Part shown: positions 3,649 to 22,593 of the stretch, piece by piece
How the letters are laid out: every line of letters starts with the position of its first letter
Numbering within the stretch: the first letter of the stretch is position 1
IMG/VR virus record: IMGVR_UViG_3300024265_000105
Coordinates: 1 to 43,609 of that record
Strand: one strand, 5' to 3'
DNA from: a virus
DNA: 43,609 nt
Program-made: the position numbers and the translations under genes
Notes under the pieces: model-generated
The model's input: the letters and a program-made list of their open reading frames with translations, nothing else
Told to the model about the DNA's origin: nothing
The model's database searches: none

Positions 3649-4923
3649 TTAAGCTGTGACGAGCTTTTCAAGCAATACACATGCGTTGACGTTCTCGATA
3701 GCATTGTCAGCTCTCATGCTGTAGAACCAGTAAGTTGCTTCGTCAGCAGCAACTCTTTGTGATTCGATTTTGATGTTCCGCTGAATACCAATAATCAGAT
3801 TACCCTTAGGAGTCAGCAGCGTATCACCATATTGTCCGGCACCGAGCCTGTCGGCTGCGGACATAGTCATTGCCATATTCGGACACGGCACAATCGGTAC
3901 TTGACCGTAAGATAATGGGCCTTGTCCAAGAATAGCTTTGTCACCGAGAATCGTTGAACGTGCAGCAAGAGCATCAATATAATCTTGCACAAGCTGGTCA
4001 GACTGGAATAATCTCAAATTAGCAAGTCCCGCCTTTTTATATTTAGACGGAAGTTTCTTCAGCATCTTGCCATATTTGAATTCCCAGTTGTACGGTGTTG
4101 ATGTATTCTGCTCAGCGATTTTCCCTGCAATTACATAACTGTGAGCGTGGCATCTCCAAGTGACTGTACCGTCAGTAACTACTCCTCCAAGAACGGTCGG
4201 CCATGTGGGTTCGACACCACCAGCTTGATTTCCAGATGTGTTGGTCATAATATAAACAAAACCAGTTGCATTCGCAGCAGTAGGACGCACAATATTACCT
4301 TGGACTTTCGCACCTGTACCAACAACGTAAAGCGTTTCTGCAATCGCTGTCATTAGTGTGCTTCCGCCAGAGACGACATTGTAATGACCACTGAGATAAC
4401 CACTTGCAGCTTGACTGTATTTGACTCTGTATCGCCAGCCAGCAAACAGACTTCGTGCATCGGTAGATGCAAAATTGCCAAGACCAATTTTGTCACCAAT
4501 CCAGAATATCTCGTCAAGCTCGTTTGCAATTTTACCTGCAACCATTCGCATTATATGGTCAGCGAAAGCATCAGCTTCGATGTTATCTTCTAAATCATCA
4601 TCATAGATGACAACGCAGCCACGCAGTTTCGCACTGGTCAATGCAATCTTATGGTCAGTGTGCTGCTTCGTATAGTCTGCGGATGTGAATGTCGAACCCG
4701 GATACAGGAATCGAGAGTCACCCAAACCAAGTGCTCTGATGTTCTTTGTCTCTTTCTGCATTTTGATTATACGAGCAGAGTTTTTCATAACCGATTCATC
4801 GACTATGTAATCAATGAAACGGTCAGCTTCCTCAGCTTCAAGAGTAATCAAAGGAAGACTTATCATCTTCTGAAGCTCTTGAATCTGTTCGCTCTTTGAA
4901 AGCATTTGTTTATTTGTCTTCAT
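3649..4923 (-). CDS. Major capsid protein (HK97-like) with inserted domain
   Basis: 424 residues. The N-terminal region (VDESVMKNSARIIKMQKETK), the LYPGST strand, the DDLEDNIEADAFADHIMRMV spine-helix region and the C-terminal IGIQRNIKIESQRVAADEAT stretch are typical of HK97-fold capsid proteins of long-genome tailed phages. Residues of about 205-262 form an extra Gly/Trp-rich beta module (GGVEPTWPTVLGGVVTDGTV) of a type found in fibre proteins, likely displayed on the capsid surface. AAAAGGAG ribosome binding site. The genes just before it encode scaffold, protease and minor head protein, the standard order. Confidence 0.85.
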   Translation of the reverse strand: MKTNKQMLSKSEQIQELQKMISLPLITLEAEEADRFIDYIVDESVMKNSARIIKMQKETKNIRALGLGDSRFLYPGSTFTSADYTKQHTDHKIALTSAKLRGCVVIYDDDLEDNIEADAFADHIMRMVAGKIANELDEIFWIGDKIGLGNFASTDARSLFAGWRYRVKYSQAASGYLSGHYNVVSGGSTLMTAIAETLYVVGTGAKVQGNIVRPTAANATGFVYIMTNTSGNQAGGVEPTWPTVLGGVVTDGTVTWRCHAHSYVIAGKIAEQNTSTPYNWEFKYGKMLKKLPSKYKKAGLANLRLFQSDQLVQDYIDALAARSTILGDKAILGQGPLSYGQVPIVPCPNMAMTMSAADRLGAGQYGDTLLTPKGNLIIGIQRNIKIESQRVAADEATYWFYSMRADNAIENVNACVLLEKLVTA

Positions 4924-4948
4924 TGTATGTACTCCTTTTAATCGTTTA

Positions 4949-4978
4949 ACAATACTTACACGTATTCTCTAGTTTCAA
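4949..4978 (-). promoter_or_regulatory. Possible sigma-70 promoter for the capsid gene
   Basis: In the gap before the capsid gene the minus strand reads TTGAAA, 18 bases, TATTGT. Each box matches the consensus at most positions, but the -10 box is not strong and chance matches are common in AT-rich DNA. Confidence 0.25.
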
Positions 4979-4984
4979 TCTTTG

Positions 4985-5923
4985 TTAGTCTTTCTTTTGC
5001 TGTAAACTTTTCCAGAGGACTTTGCCATCTTCCCCTGCTCCCTTAGGACCATCATCATTGTCAGTGTCATCACCAGTGATGCTCTTTTTCATAGCACCGT
5101 CTTTTTCCATAGCCTTGACACTTTCCGAAACTTCTGCAAGCTGTTTTTTAAGCTCAGTGATATCCGACTTCTTTTCATCTTTCTTATCCGGGTCGAGTTT
5201 CGCAACAGCTTCTGTCAACTCTGTTATTTGTTTCGTAAGTTCTGATTTGTCATCATCATCAGTCGATTTCTTTGTCTCTGTGGGTTCATTAGGAATGAGT
5301 CCCTTCAGAGCTTCGATAATCGCATTTATTTTCTTGATGACATCTTTTGAGAACTTTGCACCAGCTTTTTCAACATCCTTGTCGTCTTTCACTGCAAAAC
5401 TGTTTGCAGCACGCTTTGCGATGACACCAACTGCATTTACTAAGTCTTCGGGGAAGCTCTCTTTGTAGTGCTTACTAATGAGAGTAATCGCTTTTTCGAT
5501 TTCTTCCTCGCCGACTTTTTTCTTAATGTCGATGTCATCTTTGCCCAGATATTCTTGAAGGGCTTTTAATGTCTCTTTCTGCATAATATCTCCTTTGCTT
5601 AAAAAGTAAGTTTCGGTACGGCTGAAACCGTCTTTGTCGCCAGTCTCTTTGGAATAAGAAGCATGGATTGTTGACTTCGGGTCATTTCCATAAAAACTGA
5701 AATCAAAATTCCTTAAGTCAGTCAACTTTTCTCCGTTGACTGCTATGCTGGTTCCACCTACCGTTCCGTTGCTCTCTATTTCGATTTTGATTTTCTTTTT
5801 CGCTTTTACGAATTGACTTTCCTTTGCACCGTCCCGTTTGAAAAACAGAAACGATAATTTGTTCGCAGGCAAATCAACAAGCGAAACTTCTTTTATCTTT
5901 ATGTCTTTCAGATTTTTTGCCAT
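4985..5923 (-). CDS. Scaffold-like head assembly protein
   Basis: Starts MAKNLKDIKIKEVSLVDLPA with AAGGAG 8 bases upstream; a longer in-frame start at 5944 overlaps the protease gene and is less likely. The N-terminal VSLVDLPANKLSF phrase is typical of the region following XkdF-like proteases in other phages. The rest is highly charged with long coiled-coil stretches (residues of about 200-290, rich in Glu, Asp, Lys), as in scaffolds degraded during capsid maturation. It lies between protease and capsid genes. 312 residues. Confidence 0.65.
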   Translation of the reverse strand: MAKNLKDIKIKEVSLVDLPANKLSFLFFKRDGAKESQFVKAKKKIKIEIESNGTVGGTSIAVNGEKLTDLRNFDFSFYGNDPKSTIHASYSKETGDKDGFSRTETYFLSKGDIMQKETLKALQEYLGKDDIDIKKKVGEEEIEKAITLISKHYKESFPEDLVNAVGVIAKRAANSFAVKDDKDVEKAGAKFSKDVIKKINAIIEALKGLIPNEPTETKKSTDDDDKSELTKQITELTEAVAKLDPDKKDEKKSDITELKKQLAEVSESVKAMEKDGAMKKSITGDDTDNDDGPKGAGEDGKVLWKSLQQKKD

Positions 5924-5936
5924 ACGCTTTTCTCCT

Positions 5937-6857
5937 TTAATCAACCTTTGCGTATCCAGCCATTGAGTATCCTGTAAGCTTTCCAGCTTTTATCTCTTTC
6001 CACAATTTTTTGTCAAGGATTCTCGTGACTAACACCCATGAACCTTTCTTGACAGTTCGTTTCTCAATTGTGAAATCAACTGGAGCTATATAGTTTTCAA
6101 GTATCTTTACTTTGACATTCTTACCTTTGTGCATTACTTTGAAATTCTGCACGTTCTCCATAAAATCGTAAGCAGCTTTTTTGATTTCTTCTGCATTTGC
6201 TTTATCACCTTGAGCATCTTCTGTATCTGGTTCATATACGATGCCATAGACGATATGCTCATCACCACCCTTTTCAACTGGGAGAAGTTTAAGAATACTA
6301 TCAAATTCCTTACCATCATTTTTAATTTCTGTTTTTTCTATTTTAGTCACTGGCAACAAAACTTGATGGAATAATGGTATACAATCTCCTTCAAAATCCC
6401 TTTCATAAACAATAATACAAGGTTTATCAAATTGCTTACCAAACATCTTAATTATATCATCCTCTAAAAGCTGGTCAGGTTCATTATCTTGTATTATTAC
6501 TTTTATTTCAGTCGCTTTAGCAAAATCAACATCTAAAAGAATATAATTATCTTGCAGAGTATGCTTATTAAAATGACATATGTCAATTCCATCCTTTTTC
6601 ACTTGCATAGTTTGTTTGAAAGCCTGCCTGTCTATATCGCAAGTGCTGTGTGATAGACTTCGTTTCTCAGAATCCATTTCTTTCAAGACCATTCGATACT
6701 TAGCAATGAAATTAACACGGCTGAAGCTGCCAACAAAATCATTGTTGTTTGATTTGAAGTGTCTGTCCCAAAACTTTGCAAATTTATACTTGAGCTGTTT
6801 CAACTCTAAATCATTTGCATCTAAGAGACTTCGTTTCGTTATTTCTTCGATTCGCAT
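5937..6857 (-). CDS. XkdF-type prohead maturation protease
   Basis: 306 residues. The C-terminal 110 residues hold the protease-like core: HIVYGIVYEPDTEDAQGD, FKVMHKG with H243, and KLTGYSMAGYAKV with S298 as candidate catalytic residues, as in XkdF / S78-like peptidases. The first 190 residues form a helical N-terminal part starting ANDLELKQLKYKFAKFWDRH, as in long members of the family. It probably cleaves scaffold and capsid N-termini inside the prohead. ATG overlaps the previous stop by one base, with AAAGGAG upstream. Confidence 0.75.
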   Translation of the reverse strand: MRIEEITKRSLLDANDLELKQLKYKFAKFWDRHFKSNNNDFVGSFSRVNFIAKYRMVLKEMDSEKRSLSHSTCDIDRQAFKQTMQVKKDGIDICHFNKHTLQDNYILLDVDFAKATEIKVIIQDNEPDQLLEDDIIKMFGKQFDKPCIIVYERDFEGDCIPLFHQVLLPVTKIEKTEIKNDGKEFDSILKLLPVEKGGDEHIVYGIVYEPDTEDAQGDKANAEEIKKAAYDFMENVQNFKVMHKGKNVKVKILENYIAPVDFTIEKRTVKKGSWVLVTRILDKKLWKEIKAGKLTGYSMAGYAKVD

Positions 6858-15829: not shown

Positions 15830-16279
15830 TCAGATTTTGTGATATTTTTTCTTTGCTTTCAAATAGGCATTATGGGCTTCTTCTGGGGTAGCAAACATTC
15901 CAAGATGTTTCTTTTTTCGGTCTATTGTTATATATGCTTGATACCTATTAGCTTGATTATCAAATTGAAACCCTTTGACATTCCTTCTGTTACATTTATT
16001 TTGTTGGGGTGTTACTATTCGCAAATTCGATTCACGATTGTCAAGTGTATTATGGTCAATGTGGTCAGCCTGTCTTTTATCACCATATTTTAATCCGAGA
16101 ATTTCTCGATGCATTTTTATTGATGCTTGCTTTCCTTTTACCTTTTTACCATTTCGCACAGCATAGAAACTTTTGATACATGGACTCCAATGGGCATACC
16201 ACTTATATTTAGATAACCATTCGTAATTTTTGTCATCAACAATTGCAAATTGGCCTTGTGTAAGGATTATTTTTTTCAT
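15830..16279 (-). CDS. AP2-HNH homing endonuclease, copy A
   Basis: 149 residues. N-terminal KKIILTQGQFAIVDDKNYEW; HNH core HREILGLKYGDKRQADHIDH then NTLDNRESNLRIVTPQQNKC; C-terminal AP2-type DNA-binding part (YQAYITIDRKKKHLGMFATP, then EEAHNAYLKAKKKYH). Such free-standing enzymes cut DNA near their own locus and spread by repair copying. Its ATG overlaps the stop of the Rad50 C-terminal gene by one base. Bases 15928-16107 are identical to 30555-30734 in copy C. Confidence 0.85.
   Translation of the reverse strand: MKKIILTQGQFAIVDDKNYEWLSKYKWYAHWSPCIKSFYAVRNGKKVKGKQASIKMHREILGLKYGDKRQADHIDHNTLDNRESNLRIVTPQQNKCNRRNVKGFQFDNQANRYQAYITIDRKKKHLGMFATPEEAHNAYLKAKKKYHKI
15928..16107. repeat. 180-bp block identical to 30555-30734
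   Basis: Direct comparison of the two stretches shows no mismatch over 180 bases in the same orientation. It covers the HNH core and the beginning of the AP2 part of copies A and C, while the flanking parts of both genes differ clearly. This suggests recent copying or gene conversion. Confidence 0.9.
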
Positions 16280-16851
16280 TATAACTCGATTACCTTTCCT
16301 GTTTGAAGTTTTGGATTATGAGTAACCATTATAATCTGTATTCCAAAATCCTTTGATAAGCCTTCAAGCAACAATCGAGTGTTTTCCCAATACTCAGCAG
16401 ACATACTCTTGAAGGGCTCATCCATTACTATCAATCGCCTCAAGCTGGGCTTCGCTAAGACTAAGCATGAGAGCCTTAGAGCAAAGCCAGCCATCTCACA
16501 AACTGCACCAGAGTCACCATTTAACGGGTCTTCCACTTCATGCTCGTCTTTAGTAAGTATTAAAACGGCTTCTGTACGACCACGCTTTTTGTCGAATCGA
16601 ATATAGAAACCATAATCTTCATCAAAAAATACAGTCTCTAAACATCTACTGACAACTCCCGCAATCTGTTTGTGTGCCCTTTGCTGCACTTGCTCTGCAA
16701 TTTGTTGAGCAACTTGTTGTGCCTCTTCTGCAAATGTTAAATAGTCCTCAGCATCAATAAGCTTTTGACGCTCATCACTACAACACCTTTCAACAGCTTT
16801 AAGCTCATCTAATAAATCATCAACTTTTTCTCTTGCGTCAATCAGATTCAT
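16279..16851 (-). CDS. Rad50/SbcC-like ATPase, C-terminal half
   Basis: 190 residues from ATG 16851. About 65 coiled-coil residues lead into the C-lobe of an SMC/Rad50 head: signature-like DSGAVCEMAGFALRLSCL (residues of about 113-130, in place of LSGGE), Walker B LIVMDEPF with D144/E145, D-loop region and switch histidine in VTHNP (H178). There is no Walker A; this is supplied by the separate gene at 18350-19393. Coil is much shorter than in the N-half. Likely partner of the Mre11-like nuclease at DNA ends. Confidence 0.8.
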   Translation of the reverse strand: MNLIDAREKVDDLLDELKAVERCCSDERQKLIDAEDYLTFAEEAQQVAQQIAEQVQQRAHKQIAGVVSRCLETVFFDEDYGFYIRFDKKRGRTEAVLILTKDEHEVEDPLNGDSGAVCEMAGFALRLSCLVLAKPSLRRLIVMDEPFKSMSAEYWENTRLLLEGLSKDFGIQIIMVTHNPKLQTGKVIEL

Positions 16852-17020
16852 CTTGTAATTCTTTCTCAATCAAAGATGCTCCCGCTTTCCCAATCAAACA
16901 ATGCTTTTGCACAAATTCCAAAGCTCTTCGCCAGCCAGCTTTATAGGATTGTTTGTCAAAGCTAAAATTAGTAGGATTCTTAACATCTTTATTATATTGT
17001 CTCTCACAAAAATTATTCAT
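16838..17020 (-). CDS. Small protein inside the Mre11-Rad50 cluster
   Basis: 60 residues, MNNFCERQYNKDVKNPTNFS to LIEKELQDESD. ATG 17020 is preceded by GAGGA and overlaps the previous stop. Aromatic-rich middle (SYKAGWRRALEFVQKHC). No family recognised. Its place between the coiled-coil protein and the Rad50 C-half suggests a role in, or passive linkage with, that complex. Confidence 0.55.
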   Translation of the reverse strand: MNNFCERQYNKDVKNPTNFSFDKQSYKAGWRRALEFVQKHCLIGKAGASLIEKELQDESD

Positions 17021-17252
17021 CAGACCAGTCCTCTTCAAATCGCTCAAACGCAGCATCGAATTTTTCTTTAGAATCTGCTTCTTGTTTTCTCTTTTGTTTT
17101 AACATACGCTTAGCGTCATTGAGAGTGCTGCATCCAAACTCTCCTTTTATCTGCTTCATTACTTCTTTTTCAGCACCCTCTGCTTGGTCAGCTTCCTGCT
17201 GAGCTGATTCAACTTTCTCTTTGAGCCTAAGATATTCGTCAAGTTTTGCCAT
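17013..17252 (-). CDS. Small coiled-coil protein next to Rad50 C-half
   Basis: 79 residues almost entirely helical: LDEYLRLKEKVESAQQEADQ, a kink at GEFGCSTLNDA, then a second helix of Lys/Glu heptads. This LKLKExVE...EFGC pattern is one I associate with small phage proteins near Rad50-like genes. It could form a helical hairpin complementing the short coil of the Rad50 C-half, which is inference. Ribosome binding site AAGGATG. Confidence 0.6.
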   Translation of the reverse strand: MAKLDEYLRLKEKVESAQQEADQAEGAEKEVMKQIKGEFGCSTLNDAKRMLKQKRKQEADSKEKFDAAFERFEEDWSDE

Positions 17253-17266
17253 AATGTCATCCTTTT

Positions 17267-17389
17267 TTATCTTTTTTTCAACTCCTGTTCAACAATCTTT
17301 TCAATTATTTTTTGTTGTTCTTTCCACTCGGACTGTTCATTTTCGTTATGCCATTCACTAAATTCAGCCCATATTTTTTCCCAGTTCAT
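17267..17389 (-). CDS. Very small acidic helical protein
   Basis: 40 codons from ATG 17389 (MNWEKIWAEFSEWHNENEQS), with GGAG 8 bases upstream inside the end of the nuclease gene. Trp-rich acidic helix then a basic end (VEQELKKR). Directly follows the Mre11-like gene. Unknown; could be a small partner of the complex. Confidence 0.45.
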   Translation of the reverse strand: MNWEKIWAEFSEWHNENEQSEWKEQQKIIEKIVEQELKKR

Positions 17390-17390
17390 T

Positions 17391-18446
17391 TCATTTCTCC
17401 ATTGCTCTCAAAATAATTTGCTTCGCTTCGTTTGATGTTTTGCCACTGTGTAGAAATTCTTTCATATCAGTTACAAAATCCAACGCAGATTTCCCAAGTT
17501 TTCCAAGCTCGTCCATAAATAAAGTCATATCCATATCAGACATCTCCTCTGCCAGTGCTGTGTCCACTGCGTCTAAATGTTTATCTTCTGATGTATCAAG
17601 ATAATATGGGATAACTTCACCAGATTCTAACAATAAACCAACTTGTGGCTTATAATTAATTTCATCTGACTTTCTTCTCATCAATGTTCCACAATTGAAA
17701 ATAGCAGTGTCTCCTATTTCAGTAAGAAATCCTTTATGATTATCTCCATACACTACAACATCATACCCTTTCCACTTCCCATCATCGTTATATTCATCTG
17801 GTTGTGTTTTTAGTTTACTTTCTAAAGTAGCTTTAGGATATGAATGTCCGGGAATCCAAATATAATCGTGAATAACTGCTATCCAGATGTCACCTTCATC
17901 TCTGTCATCTTTACAGCCATTCATCGATTTAATCTCATATCCGGGAGGGAAACCACATAAAATCAAACGATTTTTTCCATCTGTGTTAATAGTCACAACT
18001 CCTTCTGGCTTAATACTCTTAATCTTACCAGCTTCTGCTAAAGTCCAATAAGCACTTCTGCGAATATCATCGTATTGATGATTTGGCAAATCATGCTGTC
18101 CCGGAATTGCATATCCATTAGGTAAATACTCAATTGCAAAATTTATCAATTCGGGAGAAGCATTCCACCCATCAGCGATTTTCTTATTGCGGTCAAATAT
18201 ATCACCAGCATAAACAACAAGACACTTATATTTTTCCTGCAATTCTCTCACTTCTTTTAATGGTCTTGCTTGTGCCTCCAACCAATCTGGCTCTGCCGAA
18301 CGCCAAAGAGGTGCTTTCAGTGACAAATGAATATCAGCTAAAAATATTGCTATGACTTTAGCTTTGCTCCGCACAGGGGGCATATTCCCTTCGCAATCTT
18401 CTTTATCTCGTCTTGGAGTTCTTTTACGTTTCTTTGGTTTTGACAT
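17391..18446 (-). CDS. Mre11/SbcD-like nuclease (metallophosphoesterase)
   Basis: 351 residues. Metal-binding motifs in order: LADIH (D38, H40), YAGDIFDR (D82), PGQHD (H118, D119; usual GNHD, so Asn is Gln here), VIHDY (H193) and YGDNHKG (D234, H236). With Rad50 such enzymes trim DNA ends and hairpins. ATG 18446 has AGGAG 9 bases upstream but overlaps the Rad50 N-half by 97 bases; ATG 18383 with GAAGGG is the alternative, removing a basic tail. C-terminal helical part may bind the coiled coil. Confidence 0.8.
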   Translation of the reverse strand: MSKPKKRKRTPRRDKEDCEGNMPPVRSKAKVIAIFLADIHLSLKAPLWRSAEPDWLEAQARPLKEVRELQEKYKCLVVYAGDIFDRNKKIADGWNASPELINFAIEYLPNGYAIPGQHDLPNHQYDDIRRSAYWTLAEAGKIKSIKPEGVVTINTDGKNRLILCGFPPGYEIKSMNGCKDDRDEGDIWIAVIHDYIWIPGHSYPKATLESKLKTQPDEYNDDGKWKGYDVVVYGDNHKGFLTEIGDTAIFNCGTLMRRKSDEINYKPQVGLLLESGEVIPYYLDTSEDKHLDAVDTALAEEMSDMDMTLFMDELGKLGKSALDFVTDMKEFLHSGKTSNEAKQIILRAMEK

Positions 18447-19393
18447 TTTTCTTGTCTCCTATCTTGAATTGATTCAATCAAATACTCAAGCCTCCCACAT
18501 TGTGCTGTTAGCTGCTGTGATTTTTCTCTCAGCTTTCCTAAATGTTTAATTGATGGAGGCCTATTCTCCAAAACACTTTGCAAGCTCTCAGCAGATTCAA
18601 CTAACTTTGAAAGCTTTTCAACTGAAATCGCTATTTCTTCGTATTTCTTCCCTGTAGACATCGCTTTTGAGCCGTCTGAGACTAAACCTAAGCGATTTTC
18701 TCGTATAGATGCGTATTTTGCTACTAAATTCAGCTTTTGCTCGATTGTGGAGCGTTTCTCAACATTTGCTTGATATTGCTCTTGTAATTTTTCTACTTGT
18801 TTAAGCTCAGCATCTAAAGCTTTAACATAAAATAACTCCTTCTTATCTTGTGTAGCTTTCTTCAAAGCTTTCTCTGTCACTTTAATAATAGTACCCGTGT
18901 CTCGTATCTCAGTTGCAATCTTAGCTAATGTACTATCAATTATTTCAAGATTGACTATCGAATTTAACTGGCGGGATACTTCACCAGCAGTTTCACAAAA
19001 CCAAAAGGGTAGGGTATGCTGCTCTTGAAAATTGATTTCAGATACATTCATTATTTCTGCTATATCTCTTGGCACATCATTTCCAAATGCAACAAATGGT
19101 TTTGATTTACCACTGAGTCTATACGAATTGACGCTTTTGTTACGAATACGAATGACTTTCTTATTATCAATAGACAGTCGGACTTTTGCTTCATCAGAGT
19201 CCCAATTTATATATTTATCACCCGCGGGTTTGTTCAACATAACCCATCGCAAAGCACGCAGCAACCAGCTTTTGCCTCTGTAACTCTTGCCAATGATAGA
19301 TGTAACAGTTGGACTGAATTCTACATCGAGCTTTTCGTTTGAACCAAAACCTCTTATTTGAATTTTTTCAATTATATTTATATTATTTCCCAT
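18350..19393 (-). CDS. Rad50/SbcC-like ATPase, N-terminal half ending in zinc hook
   Basis: 347 residues. N-lobe with Walker A IIGKSYRGKSW (35-42), Q-loop region INFQEQHTLPFW at about 120-131, then one long coiled coil (about 165-335) and, at the very end, CPLCG (C338, C341) followed by only six residues. A normal Rad50 would continue down a second coil to the C-lobe; here that part is a separate gene 1.5 kb downstream. Hook cysteines could still pair with a second molecule through zinc. Confidence 0.85.
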   Translation of the reverse strand: MGNNINIIEKIQIRGFGSNEKLDVEFSPTVTSIIGKSYRGKSWLLRALRWVMLNKPAGDKYINWDSDEAKVRLSIDNKKVIRIRNKSVNSYRLSGKSKPFVAFGNDVPRDIAEIMNVSEINFQEQHTLPFWFCETAGEVSRQLNSIVNLEIIDSTLAKIATEIRDTGTIIKVTEKALKKATQDKKELFYVKALDAELKQVEKLQEQYQANVEKRSTIEQKLNLVAKYASIRENRLGLVSDGSKAMSTGKKYEEIAISVEKLSKLVESAESLQSVLENRPPSIKHLGKLREKSQQLTAQCGRLEYLIESIQDRRQEKCQNQRNVKELQDEIKKIAKGICPLCGAKLKS

Positions 19394-22143: not shown

Positions 22144-22593
22144 CTAATTTTCAATTCTATGATATAATTTCTTTGCTTTCAAATAAGCTTTACGAGCTTC
22201 TTTGGCTGTGTTAAAATAACCAAGATAGATTCTCTTGCCATAAATACTTATTGCAGCTTGATATTTCTTATCCCTATTATTCCACCAATAGCCTTTCCGA
22301 TTCTTTTGATTCCATTGATTCTGATTCCCATCCACAATTCTCAGATTGCATTCACGATTATCTAAAGTCTTATGATTTATATGGTCAACTTGTCTTTTAT
22401 CACCACGTTTTAATCCAAGGATTTCTCGGTGCATACGAATTGGAATCCGTTTGCCATTCTTATTTACACCATTTCTTATTGCATAAAAATTATGACCGTC
22501 CCAATGTGCGTACCATTTGTACTGGTTTAGCCATTTACAATTCTTGCCATCTACAATTGTAAACTGGCTTTGTGTAAGAGGAATCTTTTTCAT
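22144..22593 (-). CDS. AP2-HNH homing endonuclease, copy B
   Basis: 149 residues, same architecture as copies A and C: KKIPLTQSQFTIVDGKNCKW, HREILGLKRGDKRQVDHINH, LDNRECNLRIVDGNQNQWNQ, then the AP2 part AISIYGKRIYLGYFNTAKEA. It is more diverged than A and C are from each other. ATGA overlap with the end of the recombinase gene. Ribosome binding site weak (AAGGCG). Confidence 0.85.
   Translation of the reverse strand: MKKIPLTQSQFTIVDGKNCKWLNQYKWYAHWDGHNFYAIRNGVNKNGKRIPIRMHREILGLKRGDKRQVDHINHKTLDNRECNLRIVDGNQNQWNQKNRKGYWWNNRDKKYQAAISIYGKRIYLGYFNTAKEARKAYLKAKKLYHRIEN

Follow-up and report, generated by a model that had tools for sequence, protein, structure and literature searches.

A Phage Rad50 Divided Into Two Genes Past the Zinc Hook and Encoded With an Mre11-Like Nuclease and a Conserved Small Protein

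The stretch of DNA examined here (hereafter, the window) is a 43,609-base virus record from IMG/VR (IMGVR_UViG_3300024265_000105). On its minus strand it carries a locus that encodes the N- and C-terminal halves of a Rad50-like ATPase (N-half and C-half), with an Mre11-like nuclease and open reading frames (ORFs) of 40, 79, and 60 residues lying between them (Table 1), as had been predicted from the sequence. The N-half has a Walker A motif (GKSYRGKS) and an arm of ~189 residues (from residue 149 to the hook), and its C-terminus is CPLCGAKLKS. The original prediction of a Walker A half with one coil that stops at the zinc hook is borne out with a small correction: the protein ends in KGICPLCGAKLKS, and the stop falls six residues past the second Cys of CPLC and five past CPLCG. 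The C-half, also anticipated in the prediction, has ~65 coil residues (a third of the coil of the N-half), a signature-like motif (NGDSGAVCEMA), a Walker B motif (LIVMDEP), and an H-loop (VTHN). The start of the Mre11-like gene overlaps the N-half gene by 97 bases.

Table 1. Genes and hook motif of the Rad50/Mre11 locus in the window.
Feature	Position	Strand	Length or basis
Rad50 N-half (Walker A and Q-loop in lobe I, then the outgoing arm and a predicted zinc hook at the C-terminus)	18350..19393	(-)	347 aa
Zinc-hook motif CPLC and flanking residues (by homology)	18359..18382	(-)	arm profile vs PDB
Mre11/SbcD-like nuclease (metallophosphoesterase)	17391..18446	(-)	351 aa; metal-site variant GQHD/GDNH
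40-aa ORF, outside the system	17267..17389	(-)	without convincing relative in fetched loci
Conserved third component, a helix-turn-helix (coiled-coil) protein of 79 aa	17013..17252	(-)	survey, pN/pS, periodicity
60-aa ORF, not conserved	16838..17020	(-)	without convincing relative in fetched loci
Rad50 C-half (lobe II with signature-like motif, Walker B, and H-loop; short return coil)	16279..16851	(-)	190 aa from ATG

The nearest relative of both halves in fold or sequence is Rad50, as judged by profile searches and, for the N-half, also by Foldseek. The N-half matches the Pfam families AAA_23 (E = 1.5e-8) and AAA_15 (E = 9e-11), and the best PDB match of a profile built from its homologs is Pyrococcus furiosus Rad50 (3qku; E = 8e-13). 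An AlphaFold 2 (AF2) model of the N-half, with a predicted local distance difference test score of 87.5, has Rad50 as its top Foldseek match (9a9j_A; E = 1.5e-6). For the C-half profile, the best PDB matches are C-terminal chains of Rad50 (3qkr_B, E = 1.8e-9; 1ii8_B, E = 5e-9; 1f2t_B, E = 3.5e-7). PHROGs and Pfam together group the N-half with SbcC/AAA_23-type ATPases and the C-half with phrog_15167 and, weakly, SbcC. The Walker A motif is present in the N-lobe, where G35 and K41 are invariant across 66 N-half homologs, as are P108, C338, and C341, and where G40 and S42 are retained in at least 90%. Walker B with the catalytic Glu (D144, E145) and the H-loop (T177, H178) are present in the C-lobe; among 51 C-halves, D144, E145, and Q172 are invariant and G115, G116, T177, and H178 are retained in at least 90%. 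The sole PDB matches of a profile restricted to the arm (A7) are two Rad50 zinc-hook chains (6zff_A, E = 1.3e-4; 1l8d_A, E = 3.6e-4), in an alignment that places the phage CPxCG on CPVCG and the phage Pro joint near the Rad50 joint ~50 residues upstream. Because the arm profile matches only zinc-hook fragments of Rad50, the terminal CPLC is interpreted, by homology, as a zinc hook.

Related loci were collected through IMG/VR scans with alignments of the C-half and of Mre11, through named phages, and through hidden Markov models run over all ORFs. This yielded a total of 121 loci, 100 of them distinct (Microbacterium phage Magritte supplies two of the distinct loci). All four genes (those for the N-half, Mre11, the 79-residue protein, and the C-half) are present in 72 of the 100 distinct loci, and in 69 they follow that order. 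Nowhere among the 100 do the N- and C-halves share one ORF, in a survey that was seeded from one clade and beyond whose reach a single-chain relative may lie. Related phages with one intact Rad50 gene, by comparison with which the window would have a frameshift, had been named in the original prediction as evidence against a genuine split; they were looked for in the same distinct loci and not found; a frameshift or an assembly artifact is ruled out by the survey, and a constitutive split is strongly supported. A total of 63 distinct loci were found by Mre11 alone, a search that is blind to the form of Rad50; 61 of these have an N-half, 55 a C-half, and 59 the small gene, and no fusion of the two halves was seen among them. 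Since the gene order recurs in 69 distinct loci and the ratio of nonsynonymous to synonymous polymorphism (pN/pS) is low for all four genes (0.13-0.44 between the window and close relatives), the layout of the locus is not due to chance. What is conserved as a unit is thus Mre11 together with a Rad50 in three parts.

N-halves stop 2-21 residues past CxxC; an end at most 21 residues after the motif is found in 85 of 88 distinct N-halves (median 6) compared with 23 of the 489 other ORFs that are 250 residues or longer. In three loci (L021, L024, and L026), Mre11 is fused in front of the N-half and the chain ends at CPxC regardless. The halves lie tens of kilobases apart in the Magritte, L037, and L038 records, and therefore neither a read-through product nor a single transcript is required. 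Isolates that belong to the family are Bacillus phage vB_BboS-125, Microcystis phage Mvi-JY20, Microbacterium phage Magritte, and probably Bacillus phage 0305phi8-36. All four pieces also occur in an unannotated 485-kb uncultured phage (L139; LR745208.1, 448500-460500), whose N-half ends in CPVCGSLPGTKCSKPSS. A genome scan with Mre11 gave a single result, a 36-kb contig binned as a Thermoplasmata metagenome-assembled genome (L127) that has the same phage-like four-gene set beside a RecA-like gene; this is probably a virus contig inside the archaeal bin.

The original prediction had listed three small ORFs between the halves, one of them a coiled coil, and of these the 79-residue one alone is conserved. 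A homolog of the 79-residue protein was detected in 91 of the 100 distinct loci. Four of the nine loci without it (L082, L084, L117, and L119) lie on contigs that break off within Mre11 or shortly past it, and searches of whole records located the gene elsewhere in Magritte (gp245) and in the L019 and L042 records; the 36.7-kb record of L015 is the only one in which a whole-record search found none. The gene is under purifying selection (pN/pS 0.24-0.39). Members of the family (~75-100 residues) have two amphipathic segments with heptad-like periodicity (3.5-3.6) that flank a common F-G-C-x-S/T-x-x-x-A turn. Their Pfam matches are generic coiled-coil models. In the PDB, the second-best match of their profile is to 6zff_A, a Rad50 hook chain; it is weak (E = 0.0011) and falls at the arm joint, which lies ~50 residues from the hook. 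None of the fetched loci has a convincing relative of the 40- or the 60-residue ORF; both were dropped as components, which leaves the 79-residue ORF as the sole one of the three that belongs to the system. In L003 and L010, a small ORF of different sequence occupies the place of the 60-residue ORF.

Measured from lobe I to the hook, the arm of the N-half ranges from ~140 to 345 residues across the family and falls into classes near 147, 185, and 227 residues, plus longer ones. These lengths recur with a period of ~40 residues (0 of 2000 smoothed resamples were as periodic), a quantization that arises through tandem units (LxxLI ... PDxxxL). In most N-half sequences, the hook follows the last Pro joint by about 54-62 residues. 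Two AF2 models of the window N-half place helices at residues 149-186, 188-276, and 283-334 and a loop at 277-282, and both a hairpin and a rod would be compatible with this prediction; a model of the arm alone gave no meaningful Foldseek match.

The genes very probably encode a phage Mre11-Rad50 complex of the SbcCD/gp46-gp47 kind that processes DNA ends, in which Rad50 is permanently two chains, with the helix-turn-helix protein of ~80 residues as a third, near-obligatory piece. In such a complex, the N-half would contribute lobe I, the outgoing arm, and the hook at its very end, and the C-half the short return coil and lobe II, with the two lobes uniting as one ABC ATPase head. A split head is feasible because in PDB entries 1ii8 and 1f2t the N- and C-parts of P. 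furiosus Rad50 are two different chains. The ~65-residue coil of the C-half would pair with the base of the N-arm, where Mre11 would bind, and two N-arms would join hook to hook via zinc; hooks that meet in this way would therefore not need to sit inside a continuous chain. The small protein would bind to this complex, perhaps along the portion of the arm nearer the hook, and the assembly would, by homology, act as an ATP-driven end processor and tether.

Several points weigh against this account. The sequence at the position of the ABC signature, where G115 and G116 are well conserved, is SGGGVVD-like and departs from LSGGE, and the contact between the N- and C-halves is one that we infer. 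The N-half of Magritte (gp155; L006, 3839-4891) is the only one without CxxC, in a phage that retains the C-half and the small protein, and the hook is dispensable at least once. Across the family, the length of the N-arm is uncorrelated with that of the small protein (Spearman 0.04) or of the C-half coil (0.02), and the lengths of the pieces do not account for how the distal arm is paired. Partial distance-matrix correlations are all weak and do not point to the arm in particular as the partner of the small protein, the strongest being that with Mre11 (0.25).

These points bear on the suggestion in the original prediction that small coiled-coil proteins complete the second arm, a hypothesis favored by the near-universal presence of the small protein and its weak likeness to the hook-side arm and opposed by the absence of a correlation in length. 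Tentatively, one copy could supply the hook-side return helix between the hook and the C-half coil, an arrangement that is compatible with the split. The small gene is often located just upstream of that for the C-half, the 6zff_A match falls at the arm joint, and in the shortest arm class (~147 residues) the 65 coil residues and ~75 residues of the small protein nearly equal the arm. However, the arm is ~185 residues long in most members and up to 345, yet the core of the small protein (~70) and the C-half coil (~65) remain constant. Because these lengths do not follow that of the N-arm, simple matching of lengths rules out that one copy fills the return arm of most members, although one would nearly suffice in the shortest class. 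Moreover, the turn in the middle of the protein suggests a hairpin, with half the length, and coiled-coil profile matches with E values of ~0.001 are weak. Just as tentative is the alternative that the small protein serves the Mre11-Rad50 head as a subunit for regulation or loading and is not a piece of the arm, as hinted at by its correlation with Mre11 and by the position of Magritte gp245 directly after the nuclease gene gp244 and far from the N-half. Yet the phylogenetic signal of Mre11 is the cleanest, so its correlation may be noise, and the coiled-coil character of the small protein suits binding to the arm. We judge binding to the arm to be roughly as probable as binding to the head or Mre11, and we do not think that a single copy determines arm length. 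It is also conceivable, albeit unlikely, that the N-arm is modular, with units of ~40 residues that each correspond to about one small helical hairpin, such that docked copies of the small protein and arm length together would set the reach between zinc-hooked heads.

The split could also be taken for a degenerate or recently broken Rad50 gene, interrupted by a frameshift or by insertion of a homing endonuclease, whose halves are decaying. In its favor are an HNH/AP2 endonuclease gene that directly adjoins the C-half in the window and a gene for an AP2 protein between the N-half and the small gene in vB_BboS-125. However, strong purifying selection acts on all of the genes, the identical break is found in ~100 diverse loci, and the catalytic residues are kept in both halves, making ongoing decay highly improbable; the survey refutes it as a description of the present-day state, and it may describe the origin of the split. 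Even less credible, with no evidence found in its favor, is that the pieces are rejoined into one chain after transcription or translation (by trans-splicing, a split intein, or a programmed frameshift), given that N-halves ending so soon past CxxC leave no room for an intein and that the genes can be tens of kilobases apart or in another order.

The Mre11-like protein of the window matches Pfam Metallophos (E = 5e-6), and its profile matches P. furiosus Mre11 (1ii7; E = 8e-8). All five phosphoesterase motifs are present, with D38, H40, D82, H118, H193, and H237 invariant (alignment A9). In 75 of 94 distinct loci, the Asn of motif III is replaced by Gln and the first His of motif V by Asp (GQHD with GDNH); other loci have Asn/Asp (4) or the canonical Asn/His (13). 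In P. furiosus Mre11, the altered positions correspond in the alignment to N84 and H206, both of them ligands of one metal, and the substitutions are a covarying change of one metal site.

Like the cellular Mre11-Rad50 complex (Rad50/SbcC and Mre11/SbcD; P. furiosus 1ii8, 3qku, 1l8d, 6zff, and 1ii7), the phage set has both ATPase lobes and an adjacent Mre11-type nuclease, and its CPxCG hook is separated from a Pro-containing arm joint by a comparable stretch (~54-62 residues). Unlike the cellular complex, its Rad50 is encoded by two genes broken past the hook, its return arm is only ~65 residues long, a conserved ~80-residue protein is added, and the Mre11 metal site is altered in most members. 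T4 gp46-gp47 is likewise a phage-encoded Mre11-Rad50 complex, although T4 gp46 is a single chain. Neighbors of the locus in the window include genes for a gp32-like single-stranded DNA-binding protein (SSB), a RecA-type recombinase, a 5'-3' exonuclease, and a PDDEXK nuclease. The neighborhood is of the kind seen in recombination-dependent replication in T4 and fits a putative role of the complex in such replication. Related HNH/AP2 homing-type endonucleases adjoin the operon or sit inside it in the window (15830-16279 and 22144-22593), in L003 (4396-4566), and in L005 (5907-6479), and the one at 15830-16279 begins on the stop codon of the C-half. These endonucleases may have helped to rearrange the genes of the locus.

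L026, which is presumably Bacillus phage 0305phi8-36 (an assignment made partly on its 769-residue protein), encodes a fusion of Mre11 and the N-half of that length that ends in CPTC plus 17 residues; the C-half is a separate gene downstream (5833-6543), with the small gene between (4809-5108). Yoshida et al. (2011; PMC3175470) described an Mre11/Rad50 fusion in 0305phi8-36 (A7KV18) and reported that they did not observe one P-loop segment. In contrast to that account, the missing C-half and the small gene are now located, and the phage is presumably a member of the split-Rad50 family. Matches of the window N-half (phrog_16465 / phrog_1499) and C-half (phrog_15167) in PHROGs are listed as separate families (exonuclease / unknown / ATPase) and are not joined as one split Rad50. 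No earlier description of a split phage Rad50/SbcC was found in the open-access literature, where the remark on 0305phi8-36 was the only related one. The placement of the split after the hook, and its retention across a wide diversity of phages, are new.

The separate PHROG families and the published "incomplete" phage fusion can be re-annotated as parts of one enzyme. More broadly, ATPases of the structural maintenance of chromosomes (SMC) type and Rad50 are thought of as single chains with arms that fold back at a hinge or hook. With its chain stopping at the hook and a small partner nearly always present, this large lineage of phages is a natural test of whether the head requires a covalent link to a zinc hook and to a complete return arm, in a small and separable system from which each segment of the arm can be omitted.

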